Of a DNA stretch of 49,604 nucleotides, positions 2,150-45,686 are shown in pieces. The DNA is taken from IMG/VR virus record IMGVR_UViG_3300045017_000039, positions 1 through 49,604 of that record, one strand, 5' to 3'. A program made the position numbers and the translations under genes. The notes below the pieces were generated by a model, which saw only the letters and a program-made list of their open reading frames with translations, searched no databases and was not told where the DNA came from. Position 1 is the stretch's first letter. Every line of letters starts with the position of its first letter. Source of the DNA: a virus.

Positions 2150-2332
2150 ATGGCAAAGAATTGGATACAGGGAGCAATAGTTCATCCGGGTGGATTACAT
2201 AAGGCCCTAGGTGTACCGGCTGGGCAGAAGATACCAGAATCTAAAATTAATGCCGCTGCCAAAAAGGGCGGGAGATTAGGTCGTATGGCTAGATTGGCTA
2301 AGACATTGAAAAAAATGAGGAAGAAAAAATGA
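2150..2332 (+). CDS. small basic phage protein between terminase and portal
   Basis: Sixty residues, very Lys/Arg-rich at the C-terminus. It opens with 'MAKNWIQGAIVHPGGLHKAL', a pattern I recognise from small conserved proteins of unknown function encoded next to packaging genes in many phages. The start is fixed by AGGAGG eight bases upstream; a longer in-frame reading beginning at 2132 is rejected. The end overlaps the portal start by four bases (ATGA), suggesting translational coupling. Function unknown; nucleic-acid contact is plausible from the charge. Confidence 0.75.
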   Translation: MAKNWIQGAIVHPGGLHKALGVPAGQKIPESKINAAAKKGGRLGRMARLAKTLKKMRKKK

Positions 2333-4068
2333 CAGATAGCGATAAATTAATGACGGATTATATAGTTAGGGAATTTCTTCGTTATGAAGGATATCATCGT
2401 GATAGGTTTGATGAGGCGGAGAAAATATATGATCATTGGATAGGAAAAGCACCACGCCGGGATTATGATTGGCAGAATGCCGTACATGTACCCTTAACAC
2501 TTGAGGGAGAGCAGACTATTACTCCCAGATTATATACAGCCCTATTTCCCACTGATGCCCCAGTTGATGTACACGTAGAGGGAGATGCACCCGAAGAGCA
2601 GGGTATAGCTATTAAATCTATTATTCAACATCATTTTAGAGTAGCTAATACCAAGGGAGAGGCTTGGCCTATGCTTACTCAAGCTTCATTGTTTGGTACG
2701 GGATATTGTGAGGGTGGATTTTGGTATGTAAAACGTGGGTGGCAAATAAGTAATATTGGAGAGAGATATAATACTGTTATAGAATCTAGACCTGATTGTA
2801 AATTTGTTAATTTCTTTGAGATGTTTCCACATCCGGCAAAGATTAGGATGGATGATGGTTTGCCTTTGATAAGACGCAGATTCTGCGATGCTGAATTCTT
2901 AAAGAATCTTGCAGATAATCCTAATTTTAAATTAGGCAATATGCAAGAAGCCTTGGAAAGTAAACCCGTAGGGCCTAGTGGTAGGGGTCCTATTAAAGAG
3001 GGAGAAGATTATGAGTTTCTTGAATATTGGGGACCCTGGGATGAAATATCTGAAAGGGAAGGAAAAGTTATAAAGAGAAAAGCTATTCCTTACTGGGGTA
3101 TTGTTATTAATAGATCTGTATTGATTAGGAATATTCCCAATCCCTATAATCATCAGATACCACCTTACTGTAAAGTAGTTCTTCTAAAGGACTGTAAGCC
3201 TTCGTGGTTTGGTATAGGCATAGGGAAAGCAGGGATATCTTCCCAAGAAAGAGTGAATAAGATAGTTAATCAACGCTTAGATAATGTTGATTTAGTGTTA
3301 AATAAACAGGGTTGTTATGATGGGAATGATCCATTGGTTAATACTAAGAAGTTACAGGTTTCTAAGCCAGGATTGTGGCATAAGGTTTCTAATACTATTG
3401 CCTCTTTGCGTTGGATGGATATTCCTGATGTCACTTCTTCTTCCTACAAAGAAGAAGAAGCGGCTAAGCAGGATTTTAGGGAGGCAACGGGAGCAACAGC
3501 ACAATTAATGCCCACAGAAGATCCCATGCATAGGACAGCTTTAGGTATTCAGTTGTTACAGGGAGCTGCCGGTATGAGGTTTAGGCCAGTATTGTCTCAG
3601 ATGGAATTAGACTTTATCCAACAATTGGCTATGTTTTTCTTTTCCAATCTCAAGCAATTCATGACAACTGCTGAGTGGGTATTAATTACGGGTAAAAACG
3701 GAGAGCAAAGACCTATTTTAATCACCCCTGAGCAAATCCAAGCTAAGGTATTCTTCATACCCACAGGTATATCTGAAACATTGAATAAAGAGATTCAGGT
3801 GGGACAATTATTACGCTTTAAAGAAGTTACTATTAATGATCCTACGGTAAATAGACAGGAAATTAATAAGAGAATAGCTGAATTAATGGGTTTTAAAGAT
3901 ATTAATAAATTACTTACACCAATGCAACCTGCGACTAATGCGGGTTTATCACCCGAAGAACAACAAAGAATTCAACAGAGATTAGCAGAAGGAGCAACGC
4001 CCGAAGAGATTAAACGGGAGATGTTGGGAGAACCTCCCATGAGGAATATGGCTAATGTTCAAACTTGA
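2329..4068 (+). CDS. portal protein
   Basis: A 579-residue protein downstream of the terminase and upstream of scaffold and capsid, the canonical portal place. The central 'QERVNKIVNQRLDNVDLVLNK' type segment, and the helical segment with 'FREATGATAQLMPTEDPMHRTA', match the portals of short-tailed phages as I know them. The C-terminus is Gln/Pro-rich and charged, as in portal barrels or tails. It would form the dodecameric ring at the capsid vertex, bind the terminase during packaging and carry the tail adaptor afterwards. It overlaps the upstream gene by four bases. Confidence 0.85.
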   Translation: MTDSDKLMTDYIVREFLRYEGYHRDRFDEAEKIYDHWIGKAPRRDYDWQNAVHVPLTLEGEQTITPRLYTALFPTDAPVDVHVEGDAPEEQGIAIKSIIQHHFRVANTKGEAWPMLTQASLFGTGYCEGGFWYVKRGWQISNIGERYNTVIESRPDCKFVNFFEMFPHPAKIRMDDGLPLIRRRFCDAEFLKNLADNPNFKLGNMQEALESKPVGPSGRGPIKEGEDYEFLEYWGPWDEISEREGKVIKRKAIPYWGIVINRSVLIRNIPNPYNHQIPPYCKVVLLKDCKPSWFGIGIGKAGISSQERVNKIVNQRLDNVDLVLNKQGCYDGNDPLVNTKKLQVSKPGLWHKVSNTIASLRWMDIPDVTSSSYKEEEAAKQDFREATGATAQLMPTEDPMHRTALGIQLLQGAAGMRFRPVLSQMELDFIQQLAMFFFSNLKQFMTTAEWVLITGKNGEQRPILITPEQIQAKVFFIPTGISETLNKEIQVGQLLRFKEVTINDPTVNRQEINKRIAELMGFKDINKLLTPMQPATNAGLSPEEQQRIQQRLAEGATPEEIKREMLGEPPMRNMANVQT

Positions 4069-4098
4069 ACATATATATAATATAAGGAGTGTTCAAAT

Positions 4099-4299
4099 AT
4101 GAACATAGAAACAGCTAAAGAGATTCATGTTAGTTTATTGTGGGAAGAAATTTGTAAAGAGTTGGATGAAAGAATAAATAAATTAGTTGTATCCTTACGG
4201 AAATGTACGCCTGAGACATTATCTATAATCCAGGCTAAAATTGCTACCCTTGAAGAGATTAAACGCCTTCCTCAAGATGTAATAGAGAGGGAGGAATAA
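4099..4299 (+). CDS. small helical protein, unknown function
   Basis: Sixty-six residues, almost entirely predicted helix, acidic and basic residues alternating ('EEICKELDERINKLV'). It has AAGGAG upstream and sits between portal and scaffold genes. No family recognised. A capsid assembly accessory role is only a guess from position. Confidence 0.65.
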   Translation: MNIETAKEIHVSLLWEEICKELDERINKLVVSLRKCTPETLSIIQAKIATLEEIKRLPQDVIEREE

Positions 4300-4351
4300 C
4301 TTCGGCTCGGATGTCCGTAAACATCCGTTAATTAAGTTATAGGAGGTTTAC

Positions 4352-5047
4352 ATGTCAGATCAGGACAAAGGTAATGTAAATCCCGATCCTGCCGTTACCC
4401 AGGATCCCTCCACCCAGGGCACGGGTGTACCGTCTACGTCAGGGACGCAAACTACTGATGATCAGGGTAAAATGGTTCCCTATGCTGCTATGAAGGAGGA
4501 GAGAGAAAAGAGACAGGCTCTCCAGGCTGAGTTGGATTTACTCAAGAATCAGACCACCAAAGTTCCCGTAGCATCTGATCCTATGGCTGATACCCGTAGG
4601 CAATTAGATGAATTATGGGATACGGATCCCAGACGGGCTATGCAATGGGAAACTCAGTTGGCGTTTCAATGGTATGATCAGATTAATGCTGCTGTTGAGT
4701 TACAGGAAGATGATGTAATTACAAAACATCCAGATTATAACCAGTTTCGTGGTGAGGTGCGTAAATATATACGCAGTATGCCAATGGAACAAAGGGCAAA
4801 AGCGGGTGTGGTGGAATTAGCTTATTATGCTGTAAAGGGACAACAGGTTGATAAGATTATCCAGAAGCGTGAACAGGAGATTCTTGATAGGATCAAGGCT
4901 GGGGAAAGTGTCTCGGGATTTAGTTCCGGTACTACTTCTTCTTCTGCCGTTAATACTGGTGCGGTTAAATTAACCGATGATCAGAAGAAGGCTGCGGCAG
5001 CTTTGGGTATTTCCGAAGAGGATTACATTAAGAACATTAAAAAATAG
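4352..5047 (+). CDS. putative head scaffolding protein
   Basis: A 231-residue hydrophilic protein with a disordered Pro/Gly/Thr N-terminus (about 1-45), a charged helical stretch with a coiled-coil look ('AAMKEEREKRQALQAELDLL', about 46-66), then helices and a Lys-rich C-terminus. This layout, and the position between portal and major capsid protein, fits a scaffolding protein that templates the procapsid and then leaves. The start has AGGAGG at a good distance. No protease gene is obvious nearby. Confidence 0.65.
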   Translation: MSDQDKGNVNPDPAVTQDPSTQGTGVPSTSGTQTTDDQGKMVPYAAMKEEREKRQALQAELDLLKNQTTKVPVASDPMADTRRQLDELWDTDPRRAMQWETQLAFQWYDQINAAVELQEDDVITKHPDYNQFRGEVRKYIRSMPMEQRAKAGVVELAYYAVKGQQVDKIIQKREQEILDRIKAGESVSGFSSGTTSSSAVNTGAVKLTDDQKKAAAALGISEEDYIKNIKK

Positions 5048-5048
5048 T

Positions 5049-5351
5049 ATGCACATAATTCTTGATATACCCATTACGAAAAAGATGAATCCCGGTGCTT
5101 TCCGCGGTGATATGGCTTGTCCCTATTGTGGATGTGGTTTAAGGGGTAAGCCAAGGGCCCGTTGGAAATACATCGAAAAGACATCTCCCTTTCGGATTAG
5201 GTATCAATGCAAGGATTGTGGACGTACTATGCAGTACGATTTTTCCAACAACGCTGATTGGGTGAATAAACATCCTTATGAACCTTACAAAAAATCTAAG
5301 TTTCGTAAAATAGTGGAGAGTTGGAAAAATTCAAAAGTATCTACGGGGTAA
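5049..5351 (+). CDS. zinc-ribbon protein in the capsid operon
   Basis: About 100 residues with 'CPYCGCG' (near 18-24) and 'CKDCGRTM' (near 56-63), a two-knuckle zinc ribbon, and a basic C-terminus. The start is uncertain: the ATG at 5049 lies just after the scaffold stop but lacks a clear ribosome site, and a second ATG at 5085 is also possible. A zinc ribbon within the capsid block is uncommon; it may bind nucleic acid or another virion protein. Confidence 0.65.
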   Translation: MHIILDIPITKKMNPGAFRGDMACPYCGCGLRGKPRARWKYIEKTSPFRIRYQCKDCGRTMQYDFSNNADWVNKHPYEPYKKSKFRKIVESWKNSKVSTG

Positions 5352-5400
5352 ACCTCGCGGATACATTCCAAGGCAATCCTTGGAGAAAAGGGAGGTAACA

Positions 5401-6201
5401 ATGAGATATCACTATGATCTATCCGGTGGCGAAGCCATCATTCGTGATTATCCTGTCTATGATGCTGCTAATCTTGATGCTGGTGAATTACTCATGCTTG
5501 GTACTACAGATCCCGATAGTGGAGCAGATGAATCACAAGCCCTAATAACAGCCTATAATGCCACAGCGGCTAATCAAGCTATTGATGCCATAGGTATTCT
5601 TAATGAGAGTACTTATGAAAGTGGTGGGACAACTCCTTCGAGAGCCCCATCAACAACTACTGGTCCTTATTATGGCAAAGTGATTATTAATCCTTTGGCT
5701 GTATATCTGGTAGAGCAATCTTTAGCTGCGGCTGATGATGCGGCCATCACCAGTACATCTACGACAACCTTAACAGTATCTTCTTTACAAGATGATATTG
5801 ATGGTGCTTGGGTGTATTTTCCTTTAACTCAATCTGGGGTTAAGGGAAGTTTGCGTTTACTTGCTGCTTCTGCTTCTGGTTCTGCGACTATGGATTCTGC
5901 ATTAACAACTACTGGTGGCAGTTCAGACACTATTGTGTTAATTTCTCAACCTTTGAAATATTCTTTGCCTTTAGAAGCAGCTGCGAAGAAAGTATCTTCC
6001 GGAGATTGTACTGCACAACTTAATGCAGCAACTAATCTCAGGATTTTACAGACTTACATCGACAGGGATACTGGTTACGAATTAATGAGACCACAGGTAC
6101 ATTATGCACTTAACAATTTGGATCAAGTTAAGGGTGGAAATGGTCCTAAATTTTACTATGACATTCTCTTGAAAGATCATATTTTTGGTATTCAAGAGTA
6201 A
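5401..6201 (+). CDS. probable capsid-associated (decoration-like) protein
   Basis: A 266-residue, Ala/Thr/Ser-rich, beta-rich protein directly before the major capsid gene. Its N-terminus ('DAGELLMLGTTDPDSGADES') resembles small head decoration proteins encoded next to capsid genes, but it is longer than those. The start at 5401 follows GGGAGG; an upstream in-frame start is rejected. A small perfect hairpin (CCAAGG/CCTTGG, 5367-5382) precedes the gene. Function inferred from position. Confidence 0.55.
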   Translation: MRYHYDLSGGEAIIRDYPVYDAANLDAGELLMLGTTDPDSGADESQALITAYNATAANQAIDAIGILNESTYESGGTTPSRAPSTTTGPYYGKVIINPLAVYLVEQSLAAADDAAITSTSTTTLTVSSLQDDIDGAWVYFPLTQSGVKGSLRLLAASASGSATMDSALTTTGGSSDTIVLISQPLKYSLPLEAAAKKVSSGDCTAQLNAATNLRILQTYIDRDTGYELMRPQVHYALNNLDQVKGGNGPKFYYDILLKDHIFGIQE

Positions 6202-8966: not shown

Positions 8967-9270
8967 ATGGATAGATTCTAAAACCATTAAGACTGGGCGT
9001 AATGCTGAACATCCTAGCTATGTTGATAATAAATATATAAAATGTAGACGTTGTGGTTTTATTTGTCATCTTAATAGAGACAGTAGAGCTTCTATTAATT
9101 CTCGCGAAGGTAGCGGAGTTTCTTTTACCCTCACCGGTTCTTCTTACGATGGTGATAGATTTTATGATGATAATAATATTGAGTATGATGATGTTGCTTA
9201 TTATGATCCAATCGTGAGTAGGGGATGTCCCCTATGTGGAACTTTATTATATTATAAGGAGAATTATTAA
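8959..9270 (+). CDS. zinc-ribbon protein, copy 2 of a tandem pair
   Basis: A 103-residue paralogue of the upstream gene: 'CRRCGFICHLNRD', 'GSGVSFTLTG' and 'GCPLCGTLLYY' align one to one, but it carries an extra Asp/Tyr-rich segment (about 65-85) between the knuckles. I chose ATG 8959 (GGGAG upstream, eight-base overlap with the previous stop) over the GTG at 8944. Tandem duplication followed by an insertion is the simplest history. Confidence 0.65.
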   Translation: MSRWIDSKTIKTGRNAEHPSYVDNKYIKCRRCGFICHLNRDSRASINSREGSGVSFTLTGSSYDGDRFYDDNNIEYDDVAYYDPIVSRGCPLCGTLLYYKENY

Positions 9271-11054
9271 TGGCTTATCCTGATAATCTTCCTGATTTAA
9301 CTAATCCCGTAGCGACAGATAAGACTTCTAATCCTTCACATGCAGCCCAACACACTAATGCTAACAATGAGATAGAAGCTATTTGTACAGAATTAGGCAC
9401 TCTTCCAAAGGGAAGTTATGGTTCTGTTAAATTAAGACTTAATGCTATAGATGCTCATGTATCTAATACTACTTCTGTACATGGTCTTACCATTGCTAAT
9501 GTAACCCAATTAGGTAATCCGGCAGCAGGTATAGTTCTTTCTACCGGTTCTGCCTGGGGAACTTCCATTACCAATAATTCTACCAACTGGAATACTGCTT
9601 ATAGTTGGGGTAATCATGCTTCGGCAGGATATTTAACAGCAGTCGTGGCGGATAGCCCTCTCTCTGGGGCAGGAACTGCCGCTTCCCATTTAACAGTAGA
9701 TTTGTCGAGTAAACAAAATCTTCATGCTAACCTTACATCTGTTTCTGGGTTAATCTATGCTTCCGCTTCTTTTGTCAAGATGACAGGAGCAAATACATTC
9801 TCTCTTGATACCAACACTTATCTCACCGGAAACCAAACCATCACTTTAAGCGGAGATGTATCTGGAAGCGGTGCTACTTCTATAACTACTACAATCGGCA
9901 ACAGCAAAGTTACCGAGGCGATGCTGAACACTTCTGACAACACCACAGCAAATATGTCTACTTCAAAACATGGGTTTGCACCAAAAGGAAATAATGACGC
10001 TACTTATTATTTAGATGGAACTGGAGTGTGGTCAGTTCCTGCAGGAGGCGGTGGTGGCGGTGCTAACACCGCATTATCCAATCTTGCTTCCGTAGCCATA
10101 AATACTTCTTTAGTTTCGGATACTGACGACACTGACGATTTAGGTTCTTCTTCTAAAAAATGGAAGGATTTATATGTAGATGGCGTTGCCTATTGTGACC
10201 AAGTAGAGGCTCCAATTATTTCTGATAGTGCAACAGGAGAATTATCTTTAAGAGCAACTGCAAATGTAACTGTTTTAGTAGATAGTGATAATGACACAAG
10301 CGGGATTTTTTATATTAAAAAAGGTTTACCAGCCTCTCCCACGACATTAGTAACTGTCCAATCAACAAATGGTTATATGGGCATTGGTGCTGCTCCACAG
10401 CATTTATTAACTCTCTCTGGTGCTGTTGGTTCAAATAGAATGTCAATTATCCGCACAGACAGTGCAACTGCTTCTGGTGGAATTTTCTTTTTGGGTTCTG
10501 ACAATGTTTCTGACTGGAACATAGGGACTAACTTATATATAGGCAGTGGTTTTGAAATTTCCGAAGGTGCAGAGCCAGGCACGAGCAATAGATTTTATAT
10601 GTCAAATGGTGGTGCATTACGTCTTACTAACTACGGTGCAGGGACAGCTACATTTGACGCTTCTGGAAATATTACATCGGTATCGGATATAAGGCTTAAA
10701 GATATTCAGGGTGATTATCAGAGAAGCCTTGCAGAAATCCTTGCTATTAGCCCGATTCTTTTCAAATATAAAAAAGAAACTGGTTTGGATACAGAAAACA
10801 TTTACGTTGGCTTTTCAGCACAGGAAGTAATGAAGTATATACCAGAGGCAATAGGGGTGGATAGTAAAGATTATTATACTTTTAATGACAAAGTAATTAT
10901 AGCCACGTTGGTAAATGCAGTGAAGGAATTGCAGAAAGAGATAGATGAGTTGAAGAAGGTTAATAATCTGCCTATTGAAAAATATAAAGCAGTTGAAGAA
11001 ATAGATGATAGTAAAGTAACAAAATATAAAGAAGCAAAAAGAAATGTTACTTAA
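9270..11054 (+). CDS. tail fibre with C-terminal S74 self-cleaving chaperone
   Basis: A 594-residue fibre. The N-terminal part ('NPSHAAQHTNANNEIEAI', a virion-attachment motif frequent in fibres) leads into repetitive beta/collar-like sequence and a poly-Gly hinge near 256-263. The C-terminus from about 465 is an intramolecular chaperone of the endosialidase/S74 type: 'SDIRLK' supplies the Ser472/Lys477 dyad at the usual spacing, followed by the 'SPILFKYK', 'YVGFSAQEV' and coiled-coil 'VNAVKELQKEIDELKK' segments. The chaperone is expected to trimerise the fibre and then cleave itself off. It starts one base inside the previous stop region (TTAATGG). Confidence 0.88.
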   Translation: MAYPDNLPDLTNPVATDKTSNPSHAAQHTNANNEIEAICTELGTLPKGSYGSVKLRLNAIDAHVSNTTSVHGLTIANVTQLGNPAAGIVLSTGSAWGTSITNNSTNWNTAYSWGNHASAGYLTAVVADSPLSGAGTAASHLTVDLSSKQNLHANLTSVSGLIYASASFVKMTGANTFSLDTNTYLTGNQTITLSGDVSGSGATSITTTIGNSKVTEAMLNTSDNTTANMSTSKHGFAPKGNNDATYYLDGTGVWSVPAGGGGGGANTALSNLASVAINTSLVSDTDDTDDLGSSSKKWKDLYVDGVAYCDQVEAPIISDSATGELSLRATANVTVLVDSDNDTSGIFYIKKGLPASPTTLVTVQSTNGYMGIGAAPQHLLTLSGAVGSNRMSIIRTDSATASGGIFFLGSDNVSDWNIGTNLYIGSGFEISEGAEPGTSNRFYMSNGGALRLTNYGAGTATFDASGNITSVSDIRLKDIQGDYQRSLAEILAISPILFKYKKETGLDTENIYVGFSAQEVMKYIPEAIGVDSKDYYTFNDKVIIATLVNAVKELQKEIDELKKVNNLPIEKYKAVEEIDDSKVTKYKEAKRNVT

Positions 11055-12580: not shown

Positions 12581-14986
12581 ATGGCTTGGGTATATAATCC
12601 TTTTACTGAGAAATTGGACGTGAAAGATTCTTCAATCCGCTACCTTAAACTTAATGGTTCTAACGAGAACACCAACTTAAATATAAGTCCTTACCACTAT
12701 GTAACTACTGGCAGGTATTATACTACTGCCATTACACCATTACCTACCGTTGATGGTATTACTTGGGCGGCAAGAAAAAAACTTACTGCTACCACCAAGC
12801 CATCCTCAACTTTGTCAAACTACACTCATCGTGTAGCCATAGTTAATGACGCACAGATAGGTGCAAGGTGCTTATCAAGCGGATATGACATAAGGTTTAC
12901 CGCTTCTGACGGGACTACTTTGCTTGCTTATAAGAGGGAATACTTCGCCATCTCTGGCGGTCTTGCCAAAGGCGAGTTCTGGGTAATGATGCCATCGGTG
13001 TCAAGCAGTTCAAATGCCATAATTTATATTTATTACGGCAATGCTACTGCCCCAGATGTATCCACCAATACTAATGTATGGGATAGCAATACCATACGTT
13101 TGTTCTATATGAAAAATCTTACTGGTGCGGCTGATGGTGAAGATGCCAAAGGATATGATTTAACCAATTACAATGCTACCGCTACAACGGGTAAAATAGG
13201 CGGTGCTAATTCGTATGCCGCTAACCAATATCAGGAAGGTGCTACAACCAACCTGCCAAGCGGTGCTTCAAGCAGGACTTATTCTTTCTGGTATAAGACT
13301 ACTGATTATAGCAACCAGAAGGTTATTCTTTCCTATGGAACTTCCTCTGGCGACCAGAGGATAATGCTGTATTATCAAAGCGGTTATATCCGCTTCAACA
13401 CTAATGCTTGGGAATTAAACAGGTATGTATGGAACATTTTCGGCAGTTGGACAAGGATTGATTGGACTTATGATGGAACTGTGGTAAAGCTGTATACCAA
13501 TGGTGCATATACGGGACCTACGGGCAATAGGACACTTGCCACTACTACCACAAACGGATTAGACTTATCAAAACTATTCGGTGCTTCAAGCGGTTGGGCT
13601 TTGGGGCAGTTAGACCACGTGATGATTTCCGATATTGTGCGTAGCGATGCTTGGATTGCTTATGACTATACTGTTCACAATTCTTCCTCTGCCAACTGGA
13701 CTTGGGATTATGAAAGAGTATCTAATGATAGTTTTCTTGAATATGATGACGTACTTGCTTCTTTGATACTTTATCATCAGGGATTAGTGGCTTTAGGTGC
13801 TTCTGCTTCTTCATTAACAACATATCTTCCCGTGAATGCAAGCATATCATTAACTACACCTTCTCTTACCGTCTCTTCTGCAATGTATCTTACTGGCTGG
13901 AGTGCCAGCAGGATTCCATACATAACAGGTTCAAGCGGGTTATTGACAAATAGTGCAAATCTTACATTTAGTGGTTCGCAGTTATATGTGAATAGCAGTA
14001 TTTCTGTTGCTGGCTATATAAGTGTCCCAACTCTTTATGGTAATACATACGGGGCTCACTATGGCGATGTTTACAATGCAACAAATGTTAATACAACAAA
14101 TATTACTGCAACAAATGCCAACCTTGTTTACTTAACCATCACCCACCCTACTAACCCCTTTATAAACTATCAGGGGACAGAAACTGCAAATGGTTATACA
14201 AATCTTTCTACGCTTCAAGGCGTAGGGGCGATGACAGCACCGTTGCAGAGTTCTGGTGCTAATGGCGGGTGGACTTTTCATGGGATGATAAAAATACAGG
14301 TAAAACTTGCAGATGAAAGCACGGTTGAAAGGTGGGTTCCTGATTATACTTTTCATTGCGGTTATGACTGCGAACAGGATAACTGTACCTGCAATACTGA
14401 CGGTTGCGGTGCAGATTGTGCTTGTAACACCAACTGCCCCTGTAATACAGATGCTCCCTGCACACCAGATTGTCCCTGCAATACAAACTGCTCTTGCGAT
14501 GCTGACTGTAATTGCAACACTAATTATGGATGCGGAGCAGACCCTTGTGCTCCAGATTGTGCTTGTAATACAGACTGTTTTTGTAATGTCAACTGCTGGT
14601 GTAATACAAATGGATGTGGAACTAACTGTACATGTAATGCTGATTGTGCCTGCAACATCAATGGTGGCTGTGGTGTTGACCCTTGTGCACCAGATTGCCC
14701 TTGCAATATGGATGGCTGTGGTGTTGATTGTGCCTGTAATGCAGATTGTTTTTGTAATGCTAACTGTGCCTGCAATACAGATTGTAATTGTAATATAAAC
14801 TGTGGTTGCGATGGTGCAGACCCCTGTGGACCTGACTGCCCATGCAATACGGATTGTACCTGTAACTATGACTATAGTTGTTGTGAACCAGATTGCACCT
14901 GTAATGTTGATTGTGTTTGTAATACTAACGGCTGTGGTGCTAATTGTGTTTGCTTTGCCGATTGCACCTGTAATCAGGATAATTAA
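12581..14986 (+). CDS. adhesin-like fibre with DUF2341/LamG-like domains and a 60-cysteine C-terminal repeat
   Basis: 801 residues in four parts: N-terminal attachment (about 1-55); a DUF2341-like domain (about 57-170, 'YDIRFTASDGTTLLAYKREY', 'IYIYYGNATAPDVS'); a concanavalin/LamG-like lectin domain (about 175-385, 'YSFWYKTTDYSNQKVILSYG', 'WTRIDWTYDGTVVKLYTNG'); beta-rich stalk; then residues 593-801 with 60 Cys in repeats of D/N-C-x-C-N-x-D/N and GCGxD-P-C spacers. The cysteine tail stops one base-step before a radical SAM/SPASM enzyme gene. Such a tail on a phage fibre is not a family I know. It may hold metal or disulfides, or be the substrate of the adjacent enzyme. Slightly GC-richer codon use than the flanking genes suggests transfer as a cassette. 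Confidence 0.85.
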   Translation: MAWVYNPFTEKLDVKDSSIRYLKLNGSNENTNLNISPYHYVTTGRYYTTAITPLPTVDGITWAARKKLTATTKPSSTLSNYTHRVAIVNDAQIGARCLSSGYDIRFTASDGTTLLAYKREYFAISGGLAKGEFWVMMPSVSSSSNAIIYIYYGNATAPDVSTNTNVWDSNTIRLFYMKNLTGAADGEDAKGYDLTNYNATATTGKIGGANSYAANQYQEGATTNLPSGASSRTYSFWYKTTDYSNQKVILSYGTSSGDQRIMLYYQSGYIRFNTNAWELNRYVWNIFGSWTRIDWTYDGTVVKLYTNGAYTGPTGNRTLATTTTNGLDLSKLFGASSGWALGQLDHVMISDIVRSDAWIAYDYTVHNSSSANWTWDYERVSNDSFLEYDDVLASLILYHQGLVALGASASSLTTYLPVNASISLTTPSLTVSSAMYLTGWSASRIPYITGSSGLLTNSANLTFSGSQLYVNSSISVAGYISVPTLYGNTYGAHYGDVYNATNVNTTNITATNANLVYLTITHPTNPFINYQGTETANGYTNLSTLQGVGAMTAPLQSSGANGGWTFHGMIKIQVKLADESTVERWVPDYTFHCGYDCEQDNCTCNTDGCGADCACNTNCPCNTDAPCTPDCPCNTNCSCDADCNCNTNYGCGADPCAPDCACNTDCFCNVNCWCNTNGCGTNCTCNADCACNINGGCGVDPCAPDCPCNMDGCGVDCACNADCFCNANCACNTDCNCNINCGCDGADPCGPDCPCNTDCTCNYDYSCCEPDCTCNVDCVCNTNGCGANCVCFADCTCNQDN
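14357..14977 (+). repeat. imperfect tandem repeats encoding CxCNxD/N units
   Basis: About 620 bases of degenerate TGT/TGC-spaced units, commonly 15-18 bases (TGCAATACAGATTGT-like). Superimposed is a longer period marked by 'GCG-DPC-PDC' segments at three places. Copies differ mostly at third positions, so the protein pattern is conserved more than the DNA, evidence for selection on cysteine spacing. Confidence 0.8.
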
Positions 14987-16258
14987 ATGGATATACTAAA
15001 GCACCCACTACATATTGAAAGTATTGATTTAGAGATAACTTCAAAGTGTAATTTACTTTGTTCCTATTGCTATATTAAGTGCGGGAAATATCCTATGGGC
15101 GATATGAGTGATGAAACCATAGAACTTACATTAGACCTGATAGAAAAATACGGAGTCCCTCAACCTACGACAGGAAAGACCTGTGATGGTAAAACAAGAA
15201 ATGTGAGGGCTACTGCTATTGCTTTCTATGGAGGAGAACCCATGCTTTCCTTTGAAAGAATGGAATACTTTATCCTGCGTTCCATTAAACGCAATATGAA
15301 ACTCAAATTCTCCGCACTCTCCAACGGCACAACAGGAACACAGGAACAAGTGAATTTTCTGCGTTATTTCAACATCTGGACTCAAAGGAGTATTGATGGT
15401 TGCCCTGAAGCACAGGAGAAATATAGACCTAATTCAATAGAGTTATATAAGGAAAAAAACAAGATATGGAAGGACTATGACCATTCCCGTAGAATGACCG
15501 TTCAACCAGAGTTTGCCAAAGACCTGCTTAAAAGCCAGTTATTCTTTGAGGAAATGGGCTTCTGGAAAGGCATTTCACCTATGCCTAATTACTATACCGA
15601 ATGGAGTGATGAGCATATAGAGGACTTTAAAAAATCATTATGGGATATAGGCAGGCATTATATTATACGCTGGAAAGAGGGAAAGGCTTTCTACAACTAT
15701 TACTTAACAAGGGAAATGGTGGCAAGGTTCTTAAGCCAGCAATCCTTTGGTTGCGGTGGCGGGAGAGGGTTACATTGTGTATCTTGGGATGGCTGGTTAT
15801 ATATGTGCCATAGGTTTTCCAAAGAACCGCACGATAGCCCATTCTGCTACGGCTACATTAAAGACGTTCTTGATGGAACTGCCAAAGGTTATGATGAGAT
15901 AGTTTATGACCGCACCGCACAATACCAAAGGAACACAAGAAATGAGTGGGAAGAAGAATGTAAGACCTGCATAGGCAATGGAAACTGCGAGAAGGGCTGT
16001 ATGCATACTAATTGGCTTACTACCCACACAACCAATAAACCGCCCCCATTGTATTGCGAGATACGCAAGGAAGCCTCTAAAGTGGTTACTTGGCTTGATG
16101 AGCAGTTAAGACCTCTTAATCTTGAGTGGTGGAAGCAGGGAAATACGCTTGTAAGAAGTAATCCCATCTGTAACCAGCAGATACAATCAAACCAACCTTG
16201 CGGTGTGGATGCGTGGCAGGTCTTTTCAGACGGCACAAGAAGGAGGATGGAAAAATGA
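14987..16258 (+). CDS. radical SAM/SPASM peptide-modifying enzyme (anSME-like)
   Basis: A 423-residue enzyme of the SPASM class. The radical SAM cluster is CxxxCxxC at C21/C25/C28; SAM-binding 'GGEP' is at 82-85 and 'SNGT' at 112-115. The SPASM domain is complete: C256-x12-G269-x4-C274, then C325-x2-C328-x5-C334-x3-C338, and C357, matching the published seven-cysteine layout of sulfatase maturases. The family oxidises or thioether-links Cys/Ser/Asp/Asn residues in partner proteins. The ATG follows the stop of the 60-cysteine fibre gene with no gap, pointing to that fibre as substrate. No sulfatase is encoded here. Cluster-dependent chemistry implies an anaerobic host. Confidence 0.92.
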   Translation: MDILKHPLHIESIDLEITSKCNLLCSYCYIKCGKYPMGDMSDETIELTLDLIEKYGVPQPTTGKTCDGKTRNVRATAIAFYGGEPMLSFERMEYFILRSIKRNMKLKFSALSNGTTGTQEQVNFLRYFNIWTQRSIDGCPEAQEKYRPNSIELYKEKNKIWKDYDHSRRMTVQPEFAKDLLKSQLFFEEMGFWKGISPMPNYYTEWSDEHIEDFKKSLWDIGRHYIIRWKEGKAFYNYYLTREMVARFLSQQSFGCGGGRGLHCVSWDGWLYMCHRFSKEPHDSPFCYGYIKDVLDGTAKGYDEIVYDRTAQYQRNTRNEWEEECKTCIGNGNCEKGCMHTNWLTTHTTNKPPPLYCEIRKEASKVVTWLDEQLRPLNLEWWKQGNTLVRSNPICNQQIQSNQPCGVDAWQVFSDGTRRRMEK

Positions 16259-16449
16259 TTTATAAATTGGTGTGGGTTATATCCGATTATTTAAACAACA
16301 ACAGCGTAATCAAGATATTCGGTTATAATGATGACGGAGACATCTGCCTTGAAAGCTATACGCCTGTTGAAGGCATAGAATTGACAAGGGATAAGGCATT
16401 GGAAAAGTTGAAAGAAATTGAGGAATGGAAGGATAAGGATATAAAATAA
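16255..16449 (+). CDS. small protein coupled to the radical SAM gene
   Basis: Sixty-four residues ('YKLVWVISDYLNNNSVIKIF ... LTRDKALEKLKEIEEW'), ATGA overlap with the maturase, and AAGGAGG inside the end of that gene. Beta strands then a helix. Tight linkage suggests an accessory of the fibre-maturation cassette (for example a recognition domain), but it has no RRE signature I can recognise. Confidence 0.65.
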   Translation: MIYKLVWVISDYLNNNSVIKIFGYNDDGDICLESYTPVEGIELTRDKALEKLKEIEEWKDKDIK

Positions 16450-16913: not shown

Positions 16914-17067
16914 TAATGTTAAACTCAACAGAAAAAAGTTTGACGAGTTTATCCATAAATCAATAATGGAATTAGTAAATAAAACAAAATTGATTGAGAA
17001 GGAAATTGAGGGTTTACGCTGGCAATTATTAATGATGATTGAAAATAATAAAAAAGAGGAGGAATAA
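16906..17067 (+). CDS. 53-residue helical peptide
   Basis: Starts inside the previous gene, stops with TAATG overlap onto the adaptor gene. Composition Lys/Glu/Leu/Ile, one helix. The double overlap supports translation; no family recognised. It marks the right edge of the differently composed 12.6-17.07 kb cassette. Confidence 0.5.
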   Translation: MDDNVKLNRKKFDEFIHKSIMELVNKTKLIEKEIEGLRWQLLMMIENNKKEEE

Positions 17068-17729
17068 TGACCAGAAAACAAATACGCGATTTAACAAGGA
17101 AGAGACTGGGGGAGACAACTTCAGCATTCTGGTCCGACGTAGAATTAAATGACTGGATTAATGATGGTGGTAGGGATGTCTGTTATAGAACAAAATGTAA
17201 AAGAACTGATGGTTATCTAACAACCTCTTCAGGTGTTGGGGAATATTCTCTTTCTACTTACTTTCCTGCTTTATTATCTATTTTCAGAATTTATTTCTAT
17301 CAGAACGGAAGTAGTTGGCAGAAATTAGATCCAACAACAGAAGAAGAACTTGATATTCTTCATCCGGGTTGGAAGAGTGCTTCTTCCGGAGTTCCTACGG
17401 AATATTTTTATGATCTTAAATTAAATAGGTTAGGTTTCTATTTAAAACCCAATAGCAGTAATGCCGGTACTAATTATGCTAGAGTTTATTATGCTGAGGA
17501 TTTTACTAATATAACAGATGATAATACAGAACCAAATATTCCAGAATTTCTGCATGTGGCAATTTCTGATCATGTGGTGGCTTATGGTTTTGAGCAACGA
17601 GGTTATGGTGATAAAGCTAACGATGCTTGGTTAAAATACTTCAGTAGATTACGAGAATGGAGAACCGAGAGCGATAGGGAGAGAGAAGACGAAGAAATAA
17701 TAATGAAAAATTATAAAAATATATATTAA
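17067..17729 (+). CDS. head-tail adaptor-like protein
   Basis: A 220-residue protein starting 'TRKQIRDLTRKRLGETTSAF' and continuing with W-x-D-x-E-L-N-D-W-I, a motif I recognise from phage head-tail adaptor (gp4/gp6-like) proteins. A helical bundle N-terminus, a beta middle and a charged helical tail fit a ring docking on the portal. It precedes the large nozzle-like protein, the expected podovirus order. Confidence 0.7.
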   Translation: MTRKQIRDLTRKRLGETTSAFWSDVELNDWINDGGRDVCYRTKCKRTDGYLTTSSGVGEYSLSTYFPALLSIFRIYFYQNGSSWQKLDPTTEEELDILHPGWKSASSGVPTEYFYDLKLNRLGFYLKPNSSNAGTNYARVYYAEDFTNITDDNTEPNIPEFLHVAISDHVVAYGFEQRGYGDKANDAWLKYFSRLREWRTESDREREDEEIIMKNYKNIY

Positions 17730-34151: not shown

Positions 34152-35570
34152 ATGAACCATATAGATTTGTTTTCAGGTATTGGTGGATTTGCTTTAGCGG
34201 CAAAGGGAGTATGGGGAGATGAATATAATAACCTATTCTTTTGCGATAATAATATTTTTTGCCAAGAAGTCATTAGGAAGAACTTCGGAAAGGAGAGTTT
34301 GATTTATGGGGACATACACGAAATTATTACTTGGCTTGTCGTTAAAAATGTGGTAAAATATATATTATGCGAACACCTAAACAGAAACGAGCAGATTTTA
34401 GAAATCTTCAAAAGGCAATTATTGCTCACCGAAAGCCAAAAGAAATCCTTATATGTGAATATTGCAAAAAAGAATATGAAGCTTTTTTATATGAAAAGAA
34501 GCGACGTAGACGATACTGCTCTCGCATCTGTCGTTACAAAGGGATGCGAGGAGAACTTGCCCCTAATGCAAATGGCGGAAAGTGGATGCGAGGAACAAGT
34601 AATCCAAACTGGAAAAACGGAAGAGGTAGAGAGCGAAACCTGCGTTACTATGACCCAGCAACAATTAAATGGCGAAGAAGAGTATTTGCGAGGAATAGAT
34701 ATACTTGCCAAGATTGTGGATATATACCTACAAAAGCAGGTCAACTTAACGCCCACCACATTGTGCGATGGGTTGACGACAAACGAAAGAGATTTGCTAT
34801 TTCAAATGGCATTACTTTATGCCTTAAATGCCACAATAGGAGACATACAAAATGACAAACGACCAGACCTTGTTTCGGGGGGATTTCCGTGCCAGAGTTT
34901 TTCTTGTGCCGGGAAGCGAAGAGGCACGAAAGATGACCGTTATCTCTGGCCAGAAATGTTTGCAATCATACGACTTACGAAACCGAGGTTCGTCTTGGCA
35001 GAGAACGTTCGTGGCTTACTTACTATTGAAGGGGGAATGGTATTCGAGCAAGTGTGCCTTGACTTGGAAAGAGCAGGTTACGAAGTCCAAACGTTTATTA
35101 TTCCAGCTTGTGCCATCAACGCACCGCACAGGAGAGATAGGGTGTGGATTGTTGCCAACTGCAAATGCGAACTTACACGGAACATCTCCACGTACACTAC
35201 AGAAAGTATCGGAAGGCAAAGTGATGAAGACATTGGACAGACAGATAGCAATGCTTCCGACACCGGCAACGAGGGATTACAAGGGGGCAGGAAAACCCGA
35301 AACGAGGATAGCAACAGGACGGAATATGGCAACGAACAGTTTGACAGATGCAATAGAAGTTTCAACCGCAAAGGGTGGAAGCGAAACTGGCTTGAAGTTG
35401 CAACCAGACTTTGTGGAATGGATGCAAGGATTTCCACAGGGGTGGACAGACTTAAATTATCAGCAAGTAAGCACCGAGTAGAACGCTTAAAGTCATTAGG
35501 AAATGCTATAGTGCCACCACTTGTAATAGAAATTATGAAAGGTATTAAATATGCTGAAATCCAAAAATAA
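34152..35570 (+). CDS. DNA cytosine-C5 methyltransferase with a 177-residue HNH-encoding insertion
   Basis: 472 residues. Motif I 'DLFSGIGGFALA' (5-16), catalytic motif IV 'GGFPCQSFS' (Cys247), motif VI 'LAENVRGL', motif VIII 'HRRDRVWIV' and motif X 'RLKSLGNAIVPP' are all present, so the enzyme could be active and would protect phage DNA. Between 'YGDI' and 'GDIQND..DLVSGG' lies an extra segment of exactly 177 codons with no stop codon; its DNA carries an HNH gene in another frame. The target-recognition part is low complexity in this frame and is overlapped by another frame. AGGTGAGG upstream of the ATG. Confidence 0.85.
   Translation: MNHIDLFSGIGGFALAAKGVWGDEYNNLFFCDNNIFCQEVIRKNFGKESLIYGDIHEIITWLVVKNVVKYILCEHLNRNEQILEIFKRQLLLTESQKKSLYVNIAKKNMKLFYMKRSDVDDTALASVVTKGCEENLPLMQMAESGCEEQVIQTGKTEEVESETCVTMTQQQLNGEEEYLRGIDILAKIVDIYLQKQVNLTPTTLCDGLTTNERDLLFQMALLYALNATIGDIQNDKRPDLVSGGFPCQSFSCAGKRRGTKDDRYLWPEMFAIIRLTKPRFVLAENVRGLLTIEGGMVFEQVCLDLERAGYEVQTFIIPACAINAPHRRDRVWIVANCKCELTRNISTYTTESIGRQSDEDIGQTDSNASDTGNEGLQGGRKTRNEDSNRTEYGNEQFDRCNRSFNRKGWKRNWLEVATRLCGMDARISTGVDRLKLSASKHRVERLKSLGNAIVPPLVIEIMKGIKYAEIQK
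34311..34849 (+). mobile_element. HNH-gene insertion flanked by GACATACA repeats
   Basis: GACATACA occurs at 34311-34318 and 34842-34849, 531 bases (177 codons) apart, each inside a GDI codon triplet of the methyltransferase. Removing one repeat unit restores a normal-length enzyme. The insert is an HNH gene plus about 50 bases. It is thus a candidate homing element that keeps its host frame open. Confidence 0.65.
34367..34855 (+). CDS. HNH endonuclease nested in the methyltransferase gene
   Basis: 162 residues in frame +2 relative to the host gene. N-terminal zinc knuckle 'CEYCKKEYE' with 'YCSRICR' (about 31-66), then 'TSNPNWKNGRGRE', then an HNH core 'CQDCGYIP', 'LNAHHIVRW', 'ITLCLKCHNRRH' (about 114-160) with both zinc CxxC pairs. 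Homing-type HNH enzymes nick sequence-specific sites and spread into alleles lacking them. Its last codons lie in the methyltransferase target copy. No ribosome site is clear, so expression may be low or depend on read-through. Confidence 0.85.
   Translation: MRTPKQKRADFRNLQKAIIAHRKPKEILICEYCKKEYEAFLYEKKRRRRYCSRICRYKGMRGELAPNANGGKWMRGTSNPNWKNGRGRERNLRYYDPATIKWRRRVFARNRYTCQDCGYIPTKAGQLNAHHIVRWVDDKRKRFAISNGITLCLKCHNRRHTK
34852..35481 (+). CDS. overlapping frame with recurrent motif pattern, 209 codons
   Basis: Starts in the HNH stop (ATGA) and lies in the third frame over the methyltransferase C-terminal half. It has 'CALTWKEQVTKSKRLLFQLV', 'LLPTANAN', 'MLPTPATRDYKGA' and 'FVEWMQGFPQGWTDLN'. 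I recognise this LPTP/EWxxGFPxGWTDL pattern from proteins predicted over or beside phage methyltransferases. In the region of the enzyme's low-complexity target domain this frame looks more protein-like. It may be a real overlapping gene or a shadow of conserved motifs; a codon-phase test is needed. Confidence 0.45.
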   Translation: MTNDQTLFRGDFRARVFLVPGSEEARKMTVISGQKCLQSYDLRNRGSSWQRTFVAYLLLKGEWYSSKCALTWKEQVTKSKRLLFQLVPSTHRTGEIGCGLLPTANANLHGTSPRTLQKVSEGKVMKTLDRQIAMLPTPATRDYKGAGKPETRIATGRNMATNSLTDAIEVSTAKGGSETGLKLQPDFVEWMQGFPQGWTDLNYQQVSTE

Positions 35571-35633: not shown

Positions 35634-35795
35634 ATGAATATTATTTGCTTGGAAATTGGTAAACAAATGTCGCGGTCGCGGTCGCGGTCGTGGTCGCGGT
35701 CGTGGTCGCAGTCGGGGTCGTGGTCGGGGTCGCGGTTGGGGTCGCGGTCGTGGTCGGGGTCGCAGTCGGGGTCGCGGTCGTGGTCGTGGTCGTAA
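35634..35795 (+). CDS. 53-codon Ser/Arg/Trp dipeptide-repeat frame
   Basis: The only frame here with an ATG and ribosome site (AGAGGAGG). After 12 ordinary residues it is a run of S-R, S-W, S-G and S-Q pairs produced by a hexanucleotide repeat, closed by TAA. Frame +1 instead reads Arg-Gly repeats and differs between units mostly at synonymous positions, yet has no ATG. The true product is therefore uncertain; a frameshift or a TTG start at 35656 could give the Arg-Gly protein. Confidence 0.4.
   Translation: MNIICLEIGKQMSRSRSRSWSRSWSQSGSWSGSRLGSRSWSGSQSGSRSWSWS
35670..35792 (+). repeat. GGTCGN hexanucleotide microsatellite
   Basis: About 20 tandem copies of GGTCGC/GGTCGT/GGTCGG with a few variants (AGTCGG, TGGGGT). 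Because the unit is six bases, expansion never shifts frame. All six frames are open across it. Variation is concentrated at the sixth base, the wobble base of Arg codons in the Arg-Gly frame. Confidence 0.9.
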
Positions 35796-43011: not shown

Positions 43012-44514
43012 TTAACCTCCTAACAACTGCATTATTACTTCCAACAATACTAATTCAGCATTTTCTCCAACCAGGATATTATTGTCGCCTATAATTTTCT
43101 TTACAAAAGCTCCTTGTAGTTCTGCATCTATTCCTATAATCATACACTTTACTTCGCTGTTCTTTTTTATTATTAGATTTTGCATATCTTCTATCTCGCG
43201 ATTGTCCACTAGACCATCAGTAAAGACTATAATTAACTTATTACCATCGATCTCAAACTCATTACTGATTTTTTCCATAACCCCCTCAAACGCTAGATAA
43301 AGATTAGTACCACCGCAAGGCCAGTATTCATCAGCCCAAGTTTCTTTGTTATAGGCAATAGGATTAGTATTAAATCCACTAATATCCCAATTCACATCTA
43401 TCCCTTCAGCCTGTCTCACCTCCTCTAAAATATTAATTAAACTCTTGACGCATTTTATTACGACACTATGCTTAGATTGATTATCTAAAAGATTACTCAT
43501 CATAGAACCACTAGCGTCCAAGAGAATTAGTATTTTTGATTTCTTTCTTTTCACTATTTTGTCATTATAGAATAATTCTTCTATGTCCCCGGTGTGGAAA
43601 CTTATTAGATTATCAGTGTTTAGAATTAGTCCATTGTCTATTATTTTTTGTTCTTTAATATCTAATAGATCTTTAAATCTTTGCTTGGTTAATTCCCCTA
43701 AAGCTAACGATCCTATCTCGGAGCTACCCACTTTTGCATTAGGATCTATCTCCCATAATTTATTGGTAGAGAAATAACCTCCAAGGATAATTCCTTTTTC
43801 TTCTCTTCCTTGCTTGTCCTTTTCTTCTTCCTTCTTATTTTGTTTTGCCTGTCCCCGAGTTTGTTCCTTATCTTGTTCTCCCCCTTCAGAATTTTCTCCA
43901 TTTTCATCAGGAATTTCTTCTGGTTTACTTTGAGAATCTAGATTATATTTCCTCATTAATTCTTTTATGATTTCCTTGGCTTGAGAATAGTTCTCTGCGT
44001 TTAGGGCATTTTCACATTCCCACATTTTGCTGGCTGTTTCGGCTTGGCGTATTTTTTCTTCTTCATTAATTTCGTTAAACAGATATTTAACCATTCCCTC
44101 GTTGTCTAAAATACCTTGCATTAAATCTCTACATAATAAGGATAGATTTTCATACTGTTCTTTCGTTATCATGGTTCTTTCGTAAAGTTTTTCATAGAAC
44201 CCTATAATGTTTGGCAGGATATCAAAGTTCTTTCTATCTATCCTGACATCTTCGATGGCGTTTAGAATAAGATGCTCTGTTTCATTATCTATAAGCTCTT
44301 TTATCGGAAGTTTCTTTGTGTGTCTTATGTGGGCCGCTTCGTGCATTAATATAGCTAGGGCTGCTTCAGCATTCTCTGTCTTTATATTGTTAGGAAGATA
44401 GATTGTGTTAGTCTTTATATCGGTTGTCGGTGAAACGTTGGGTTGAAAGACCACATTTATTCCTAATTCTTTGCCTATCCACTTGGCAATTATCTCATAA
44501 GTTCTTAAGTTCAT
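43012..44514 (-). CDS. CobT/VWA-domain protein with metallopeptidase motif
   Basis: 500 residues. N-terminal 'LMHEAAHIRHT' gives a zinc HExxH at H58-H62 with E88 in 'NAIEDVRID' as a candidate third ligand. An acidic Gln/Glu/Lys linker (about 190-240) follows, then a von Willebrand A domain with MIDAS D333-x-S335-x-S337 ('LLDASGSM') and 'IVFTDGL'. Proteins of this build are chaperone partners of MoxR AAA+ ATPases, one gene upstream here. The pair probably inserts metal or remodels a target complex. Confidence 0.82.
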   Translation of the reverse strand: MNLRTYEIIAKWIGKELGINVVFQPNVSPTTDIKTNTIYLPNNIKTENAEAALAILMHEAAHIRHTKKLPIKELIDNETEHLILNAIEDVRIDRKNFDILPNIIGFYEKLYERTMITKEQYENLSLLCRDLMQGILDNEGMVKYLFNEINEEEKIRQAETASKMWECENALNAENYSQAKEIIKELMRKYNLDSQSKPEEIPDENGENSEGGEQDKEQTRGQAKQNKKEEEKDKQGREEKGIILGGYFSTNKLWEIDPNAKVGSSEIGSLALGELTKQRFKDLLDIKEQKIIDNGLILNTDNLISFHTGDIEELFYNDKIVKRKKSKILILLDASGSMMSNLLDNQSKHSVVIKCVKSLINILEEVRQAEGIDVNWDISGFNTNPIAYNKETWADEYWPCGGTNLYLAFEGVMEKISNEFEIDGNKLIIVFTDGLVDNREIEDMQNLIIKKNSEVKCMIIGIDAELQGAFVKKIIGDNNILVGENAELVLLEVIMQLLGG

Positions 44515-44525
44515 TCACTCCTCCT

Positions 44526-45686
44526 TTAATCTATTTCTTCCGCTTTCCAAGTTGCATTTATCAATACCGTTATACTTTCTTTGGCCTTTGGTTGACTCAC
44601 AGCATCTAGCATGCCTGATAAACCCACTTCAACGGCACTCTTTAACGGTAATCCATGGAGCCACAGGTCAATTACACTGTTTAATTGCCTGATTGAAATA
44701 TCTATTGGCAGATCATTTCGTTGGATTAACTCAATCACCTCGAAATAAAATGCTGCGAACTTTTCAACATCAGTTGCTATTAATCCTGGAAATCGTTTGG
44801 CTATAGCCTTCTTAATCTGTGACTTTGTAAATTCTGGGTAGGTAATAAACACACATCTGCCCAGAAAATTAGCTGGTTTGATGTTACCGCCGATATACTT
44901 TTGTCCTTTAGGATTCATAGCGAAACCCACCTTGCAATCAGGATGTAGCTTATAAATCTTACCTTTGCCATCATCAGCGTCTTTAATAAATAATTCTCTG
45001 TTCTGTAACAATGCGTGGAAATCATAAGTATAAGTATTACTAGTTGCATTAATCTCATCAAAAAGCATCACGCCTGGATGTTGAATTGCCTGAGTCATCA
45101 GAGATTCCTTGAACTTTACCGTTCCGTTCTCAATGGTTTTATCGCCGAACAATTTTTGTAGTTTCATATCCTCATAACAGGAGAACAGATAGAATGGTAA
45201 GCCCTGTTTATAAGCATAATAGGCATGTCCATAAGTTTTTCCCGTTCCCTGCTTACCTTGAGTCAACGGATAGATTGTTTTCTTTGGTCCTTGGAGATTA
45301 TACGCAGAGGCTAACAGTTTATCGATATCTCTTTCTATATAATCTTCAAAGTCTTTTTCTTCGGGAATATATTTTTTTAATTCTTCTGGAATCTCATAAG
45401 TTCTTATAGCAATAGTGGTACTTAACAATTCTCGTTTGGATTTTTCTTCTGTAGTTGCAGTACTAGCTGGAGATACTGGTTCTACCCTTACTTTTCCGCC
45501 AACGCTTACCCCAGAAAGTGGTTTACCCATCACGATAAATCTTCCCCTTATCGTTGACTCATCCAGGGTGATTCCATATTTCTTTTTTAATTCATCAGCA
45601 ATTTGCCAGGCTTTTACTTTGGTTCCATTTATTTCCAACGCATTTCTTATTTCTTCTAATTGTTCATTGCTTACTTGGCTCACCAC
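44526..45686 (-). CDS. MoxR/CobS-type AAA+ ATPase
   Basis: 386 residues. N-terminal HTH-like domain (about 8-55, 'KVKAWQIADELKKKYGITLD'); Walker A 'GKQGTGKT' (144-151), Walker B 'VMLFDEI' (D210/E211), sensor N in 'FAMNPKG', and an arginine in 'FLGRCVF'. A GTG start is used, six bases after GGAGG; a second GTG follows. MoxR plus VWA protein pairs are known in bacteria and some phages. Target unknown; no cobalamin gene is near. Confidence 0.85.
   Translation of the reverse strand: MVSQVSNEQLEEIRNALEINGTKVKAWQIADELKKKYGITLDESTIRGRFIVMGKPLSGVSVGGKVRVEPVSPASTATTEEKSKRELLSTTIAIRTYEIPEELKKYIPEEKDFEDYIERDIDKLLASAYNLQGPKKTIYPLTQGKQGTGKTYGHAYYAYKQGLPFYLFSCYEDMKLQKLFGDKTIENGTVKFKESLMTQAIQHPGVMLFDEINATSNTYTYDFHALLQNRELFIKDADDGKGKIYKLHPDCKVGFAMNPKGQKYIGGNIKPANFLGRCVFITYPEFTKSQIKKAIAKRFPGLIATDVEKFAAFYFEVIELIQRNDLPIDISIRQLNSVIDLWLHGLPLKSAVEVGLSGMLDAVSQPKAKESITVLINATWKAEEID

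Follow-up and report, generated by a model that had tools for sequence, protein, structure and literature searches.

A cysteine-array fibre and an adjoining radical SAM/SPASM enzyme as a candidate substrate and maturase pair in a virus genome and its phage relatives

QhpD forms Cys-to-Asp/Glu thioethers in a protein subunit of quinohaemoprotein amine dehydrogenase and not in a secreted peptide. Asn is an acceptor in the NxxC family of beta-thioether ranthipeptides. PapB links the sulphur of Cys to the Asp beta carbon (or the Glu gamma carbon), accepts Cys-Xn-Asp with n = 0-6, and makes both in-line and nested rings (PMC9413430). In phages, radical S-adenosylmethionine (SAM) genes have been termed 'highly unusual' and taken as metabolic (PMC2853527, PMC5332604, PMC12390700). 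Campylobacter phage CP220 has 11 of them (PMC2853527), a marine T4-like phage has 12 (PMC5332604), and Aeromonas phage 332-Vera carries eight among its structural genes (PMC12390700). We analysed a complete virus record, IMG/VR IMGVR_UViG_3300045017_000039 (49,604 bases; this whole stretch is called the window below), in which the gene of a fibre-like protein with a C-terminal Cys array abuts the gene of a radical SAM/SPASM enzyme.

The best explanation of this gene pair as a whole is a substrate with its dedicated maturase, to which we give a probability of about 0.5. The pair appears to belong to a large class of phage Cys-array/radical SAM pairs that seems not to have been described. We found no description of the pairing in the open-access literature (subscription papers and bioRxiv lay outside the search). 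The features of the pair are given below.

12581 to 14986, plus strand: fibre-like protein, 801 residues, DUF2341 and LamG-like (ConA-like lectin) domains, C-terminal Cys array (open reading frame, ORF; Pfam)
14357 to 14983, plus strand: Cys array, residues 593-801, units CxCNx[D/N], proposed substrate (60 Cys, 57/60 with D/N at +3)
14987 to 16258, plus strand: radical SAM/SPASM enzyme, 423 residues, proposed maturase (CX3CX2C, 7-Cys SPASM, NF047865, PHROG 1802, AlphaFold2 model)
16255 to 16449, plus strand: 64-residue ORF, ATGA-coupled to the enzyme (junction; predicted beta-beta-beta-alpha, low confidence)

The fibre-like protein showed DUF2341 at residues 101-166 (4.1e-10) and Laminin_G_3 at 222-360 (2.7e-9), both passing the Pfam cut-offs. 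The 209 residues from 593 to 801 held 60 of the protein's 61 Cys (29% of the array), 35 Asn and 27 Asp, and neither Arg nor Lys. CxC and CxxxC spacings were each counted 23 times; CxxC was absent and CC occurred once, against 16.6 and 13.3 expected. D/N stood at +3 for 57 of the 60 Cys (26 D, 31 N), compared with 17.7±3.0 and a maximum of 30 in 2000 shuffles of the array residues. NxxC units numbered 21 (9.9±2.4 in shuffles) and CxxxD two; the repeated CX3D/E of a PapB substrate was thus not found. The array pattern gave 9 matches in the window and 0 in 100 shuffles. Across 20 hexapeptide units C, N and D/N were constant, the wobble bases of their codons varied, and the repeats were imperfect at the DNA level, which argues for selection on the protein and its spacing and not for an expanded microsatellite.

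The first-pass annotation had described a C-terminal tail of 209 residues with 60 Cys and many Cys-x-x-Asp pairs, a stop codon abutting the start of the enzyme, and all seven auxiliary SPASM Cys in that enzyme. The residue count agreed with this tail, 26 CX2D were counted in the array, the junction reads TAA/ATG at 14984-14989, and the seven Cys are all present. Its D/N-rich CxC repeat held as well, but not as one uniform motif, since CxCNx[D/N] is interrupted by GCG, DPC and CC variants. The tail and the enzyme had also been called fused; they are two separate abutting genes, with AGGA ~9 nt upstream of the enzyme ATG.

Within the enzyme, C21/C25/C28 form the CX3CX2C cluster motif, and the SPASM pattern reads C256-x12-G269-x4-C274 ... 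C325-x2-C328-x5-C334-x3-C338 ... C357. The protein therefore has the CX3CX2C and CX9-15GX4C ... CX2CX5CX3C ... C signatures of the radical SAM/SPASM family, and these Cys motifs were invariant or nearly so across 33 phage homologues. NF047865 (PapB) was the top NCBIfam model (1.3e-41, 142.9 bits, residues 10-352), followed by the nif11-peptide, QhpD and SCIFF maturases, including other thioether or Cys-rich maturases. No maturase model reached its cut-off: QhpD (TIGR03906), the third-best model, scored 76.3 bits (1.9e-21) against 453, anSME (TIGR03942) 34 bits against 349, and the CXXX-repeat maturase (TIGR04115) 36.2 bits against 350. The match to PHROG 1802 (E 2.6e-27, residues 12-346; PHROGs have no curated cut-off) makes the window enzyme, by sequence comparison, a distant member of that family; enzymes beside (CNC)n-type tails match it at 1e-53 to 1e-73.

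The AlphaFold2 model of the enzyme (predicted local distance difference test, pLDDT, 74; predicted template modelling score, pTM, 0.78) had CteB (5wgg) as its nearest solved fold, with Z 30.9 over 325 residues at 22% identity; further matches were anSMEcpe (Z 26.2) and ChlB. Only 20 residues precede C21, CteB was aligned from its residue 88, and an N-terminal extension like the RiPP recognition element (RRE; RiPP, ribosomally synthesised and post-translationally modified peptide), a mark of PapB, was absent from the enzyme. The model scores and the predicted fold support a place nearest to the ranthipeptide-type thioether maturases. Downstream, the 64-residue ORF starts at 16255, overlapping the enzyme stop (ATGA), ends at 16449 and follows a strong Shine-Dalgarno sequence, AAGGAGG at 16240-16246. 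Its 63-residue translation had no family match in Pfam, NCBIfam or PHROG, and its single-sequence AlphaFold2 model was poor (pLDDT 60, pTM 0.39). No homologue was recognised at L415, the sole locus with flanking genes examined for it. The first-pass annotation had suggested that this product may be the recognition partner; these results lend the idea no support and do not speak against it.

Neither the enzyme nor a 745-residue neighbour, each used as a single protein query, recovered a relative in viral contigs. An enzyme-only scan of viral contigs with alignment A1 gave 57 loci. A strict Cys-array criterion was applied to them (at least 4 CxC in 30 residues, at least 6 Cys, no overlap by a longer ORF); the overlap filter was used because the unfiltered control count was dominated by shadow-frame ORFs. 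Arrays were present at 23/57 enzyme loci and 0/96 control loci (p 4e-12), where the 15-mer control was not fully random (several loci in one gene family), the control loci were ~8 kb long against 11-13 kb for the enzyme loci, and many enzyme loci were related to one another. After clustering the count was 14/32 (p 3e-10), and with a threshold of three CxC it was 19/32 (p 2e-14).

Scanning with alignment A3, with matches confirmed against the window enzyme, gave L480 and L483 (40% identity), L481 (37%) and L482 (32%) as the nearest relatives, and PapB NF047865 was the best curated model for these four as well. In 4/4 the enzyme is preceded on its own strand by a Cys-array protein that ends 15-67 nt before it. 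The arrays of L480, L483, L481 and L482 hold 48, 56, 31 and 107 Cys, respectively, and their bodies measure 445-1987 residues, with collagen in L481 and F5/8-C discoidin in L483. The fraction of Cys with D/E/N at +3 was 0.74 for L480, 0.70 for L481, 0.45 for L482 and 0.68 for L483, against shuffle values of 0.30, 0.34, 0.27 and 0.38, respectively. In L480 the repeat is CxCDx[E] (CACDLE, CGCDTE, CTCDQE and others), so both acceptor residues of the window unit CxCNx[D/N] are conservatively swapped. Over all 77 relatives, 65 had a same-strand Cys-dense ORF, 40 of them within 1 kb, compared with 6/96 controls on either strand (p 8e-28).

The enzyme lineage is thus repeatedly associated with Cys-array proteins, and the array appears from these comparisons to travel with the enzyme and not with the fibre body. 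The first-pass annotation had suggested searching environmental phages for Cys arrays beside SPASM genes and had held that its proposal would fail if homologous Cys tails mostly lacked the enzyme, or if the enzyme lay next to unrelated genes and left a co-expressed tail unmodified. The searches pointed the opposite way, with arrays at the 4/4 nearest and 65/77 of all relatives, and support the proposal as far as sequence evidence reaches. Matches in gut phage records (L091-L094) resembled cellular ScfB-type enzymes, had no arrays and were set aside.

The array was also searched for by itself. With the array as tblastn query and the low-complexity filter on, phage records yielded no relative. 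A scan of IMG/VR with a DNA pattern spanning two repeat units recovered many unrelated phages with structural proteins ending in (CNC)n tails. A radical SAM gene lay on the same stretch in 20 of those array loci, and for further contigs, whose first stretch was too short, the enzyme was located on another stretch (L072, L067, L071, L069; also L554 for L041); at four further array loci the downstream DNA was too short for an enzyme call. Altogether, at least 22 enzyme clusters (60% identity) had a same-strand array partner at a distance of up to ~2 kb. The array stood mostly at the extreme C-terminus or immediately ahead of a self-processing domain, Hint or S74. Bodies included a T7 tail-fibre N-domain with collagen and phage tail repeats (L149), tail-fibre PHROGs (L032) and small proteins of 78-180 residues. 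L415/L551 encode an 81-Cys protein whose body is unlike that of the window fibre. Its GCGx[DN]CxC[ND]x[DN]C unit is shared with the window array, and an enzyme adjoins it. Over 22 phage arrays Asn was the top non-Cys residue (24%), and Asp made up 4%.

Cys arrays stand directly before a Hint domain in L083/L087, L118, L124, L130, L402, L474 and L060, where self-cleavage would leave the array as the new C-terminus. CTCNCNYC-type arrays precede an S74-like chaperone segment (SDERLK...) in large phages with several radical SAM genes nearby (L097, L488, L502, L516, L519, L530, L542, L545, L546, L548). In phage locus L096 an acyl-carrier-protein-like gene (1932-2228) lies amid radical SAM genes and adjoins a 90-Cys array protein. 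At 273-671 of L424, a viral contig, a metallothionein-like Cys protein is encoded, with no radical SAM gene in the stretch examined.

The array pattern was scanned over genome contigs too. Most matches were (CNC)n frames of microsatellites or spore-coat-like GCGCNNNC proteins; they had no enzyme and were judged unrelated. Two loci from metagenome-assembled genomes (MAGs), L256 and L276, paired arrays with radical SAM genes. In L256 (Clostridia MAG) tail-fibre-like repeats are followed by two tandem array proteins at 3440-4327 and 4360-5691, with 36 and 34 Cys, and these in turn by one radical SAM gene and a portion of another; this locus is probably a prophage. In L276 (Bacillales MAG, 856-2159) a radical SAM gene overlaps a 24-Cys DCNCNVDCDCN protein with no obvious phage context, possibly a bacterial RiPP relative.

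Cultured phages carry the pair as well, and the claim is therefore testable now. Achromobacter phage JWF encodes a Hint-ended fibre-like protein, gp028 (QNCNCDCNCNCSC/FPAGT; L083/L087 above), and the enzyme is gp030. Two radical SAM genes of Salmonella phage SPN3US, and likewise of the Erwinia phages EarlPhillipIV, Kwan and phiEaH2, are directly preceded by genes for CXXX-repeat proteins that hold 20-23 Cys. A jumbo-phage Cys protein scored 19.9 with TIGR04114, for which the cut-off is 20, and the enzyme of this jumbo-phage group had a match in 82 phage records. In SPN3US (NC_027402, L367) the CXXX-repeat genes lie at 4085-4483 and 4497-4898, the first unannotated, and they have the same place in L368, L369 and L089; this pair sits between a virion structural gene and the two radical SAM genes.

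In the proposed mechanism the enzyme, having no leader-binding RRE of its own, would travel along the unfolded array of a newly made fibre during infection of an oxygen-poor host. It would remove a hydrogen from the side chain of the Asp/Asn at +3 of a Cys, and the carbon so activated would be bonded to the sulphur of that Cys. The short thioether rings, running from C1 to N4 and from C3 to D/N6 within every CxCNx[D/N] unit, would interleave as a ladder at a cost of two hydrogens per ring; up to ~57 rings would change the mass by -115 Da. The lectin-like fibre would thereby gain a stiff tip, free of disulphide-like reshuffling and resistant to reduction and proteases.

The steps of this mechanism differ in strength. 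Modification of the array by the enzyme is highly probable, and a thioether product of any regiochemistry is probable. For a non-alpha thioether to D/N at +3 the chances are about even; the +3 spacing was kept between the window and L480 while N changed to D and D to E, which implicates the +3 side chain. A hardened or adhesive virion tip as the role of the array is an equally balanced proposition. More broadly, it is somewhat likely that radical SAM/SPASM enzymes of tailed phages turn arrays on fibres and small virion proteins into a poly-thioether, RiPP-like material in a widespread virion-maturation system. Its lineages would be podoviruses, siphoviruses, T4-like and jumbo phages, and maturation would come before or together with Hint/S74 self-processing. 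Such a system would explain the many radical SAM genes among the structural genes of some phages.

Several observations weigh against the substrate and maturase explanation. The PapB score of 142.9 bits is far below the curated cut-off of 340 bits, and the window enzyme shares 16-25% identity with most other phage enzymes. A leader and a separate RRE protein were looked for and not found, the model of the 64-residue ORF being too poor to judge. In more distant pairs the acid stands at +4 or acids are scarce (CTCTCTC, CQTCQGC, CXXX), so a single chemistry may not hold for every pair, and the chemistry or regiochemistry probably varies by sub-family. Some of the enzymes used to build the A1 and A3 queries had first come to light next to arrays, and the percentages obtained with them are perhaps somewhat high. 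The array as substrate, the thioether product and the rigid or metal-loaded tip are proposals from sequence, and the presence of the window fibre in the virion is deduced from domains and position.

Another radical chemistry might act on the array, giving a C-alpha (sactionine) thioether, a Cys-to-Asn beta-thioether in the N-to-C sense (NxxC), oxidation, dehydrogenation or epimerisation. We regard this as possible but rather unlikely. The excess of NxxC units over the shuffles fits it, SPASM enzymes catalyse several reactions, and the model of the window enzyme also matches anSMEcpe and ChlB. The 24% Asn and 4% Asp over the 22 arrays also point this way, and mean that Asp-specific PapB chemistry cannot be general. 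The formylglycine version is opposed by the lack of Arg, which leaves no CxPxR sulphatase motif, the substrate of anSME. The best model and fold are both those of thioether maturases, and the +3 spacing is conserved in the sub-family despite the N-to-D and D-to-E changes.

An improbable alternative is a metallothionein-like, Fe-S-loaded or disulphide tip, with the enzyme not its maturase or only an indirect helper. A content of 29% Cys with 23 CxC recalls metallothioneins, the L424 phage protein looks like a real metallothionein, and metal could also be bound after modification. However, L424 has no enzyme in its examined stretch, whereas fibre arrays do; the absence of CxxC and the single CC among 60 Cys are unlike Zn or Fe-S sites, and simple metal binding would not call for so closely paired a SPASM enzyme. 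It is very improbable, and for this lineage largely excluded, that the gene next to the fibre is there by chance, as an auxiliary metabolic gene of low-oxygen or Fe-S metabolism. Earlier readings of phage radical SAM genes were of this kind (PMC2853527, PMC5332604), and in the ~99 kb of CP220 examined, a phage with 11 radical SAM proteins (PMC2853527), no Cys array lay beside a radical SAM gene, nor did the sole Cys-rich protein of that stretch. Arrays nevertheless adjoined the 4/4 nearest and most of the 77 relatives but not the controls, and enzymes of this family are peptide or protein maturases with a SPASM domain.

The structural module of the window, recognised by Pfam and PHROG matches, comprised a terminase, an SU10-type portal, an adaptor, a capsid protein and an S74 fibre. 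The fibre gene of the pair is flanked by the S74 fibre and the adaptor; by this position within the tail module and by its fibre-type domains, its product classes as a tail fibre.

2329 to 4068, plus strand: SU10-type portal protein (PF23899, 2e-10; PHROG 332 and 1216)
9270 to 11054, plus strand: fibre protein with Peptidase_S74 intramolecular chaperone (Pfam/PHROG matches)
17067 to 17729, plus strand: SU10-type adaptor protein of the tail module (PF24175, 2e-21; PHROG 399 structural protein)

Further along, the protein at 19978-20790 matches the Mtd second domain (8e-6), a receptor-binding fold found in retroelement-diversified phages. As to an origin of the repeats by a diversity-generating retroelement, no sign of a reverse transcriptase was present among the annotated window genes, and no search was aimed at it. 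A 30-base tandem repeat of GTCGCG type (35669-35792) directly follows a C5-cytosine methyltransferase gene (34152-35570). At 43012-45686 on the minus strand, a VWA-domain protein with a weak peptidase PHROG match adjoins an AAA ATPase (CobS-like PHROG 249).

The pairing provides a testable alternative to the metabolic view, namely that at least many phage radical SAM genes mature virion proteins. If true, covalent radical cross-linking would join the modes by which phages build fibres, with enzymes placing dozens of links in a large protein and having no fused leader-binding domain. Cross-linked arrays with no Lys or Arg would evade ordinary tryptic searches and form a blind spot in virion proteomics.

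Compared with known systems, the window pair is most like PapB/PapA of the freyrasin-type ranthipeptides, where a radical SAM/SPASM enzyme also adjoins a Cys/Asp-rich substrate; PapA has six CX3D motifs, whereas the window array has 60 Cys in CX2[D/N] spacing as the tail of an 801-residue viral fibre. QhpD is likewise a SPASM enzyme acting on a protein, but its substrate is another one, and there is no amine dehydrogenase among the annotated window genes. The SCIFF maturase CteB/ScfB (5wgg/5why), a thioether former, has the closest solved fold; it differs by a region before residue 88 that the window enzyme lacks and by its short precursor peptide. The CXXX-repeat peptides with their maturase (TIGR04114/TIGR04115) likewise combine a Cys-repeat substrate with an adjacent radical SAM enzyme and differ in repeat spacing and enzyme sub-family. 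PHROG 1802, the 'radical SAM domain-containing protein' of phages, is a family without assigned function. The chemistry class of the enzyme is already known, and its use on viral fibres would be the new part.

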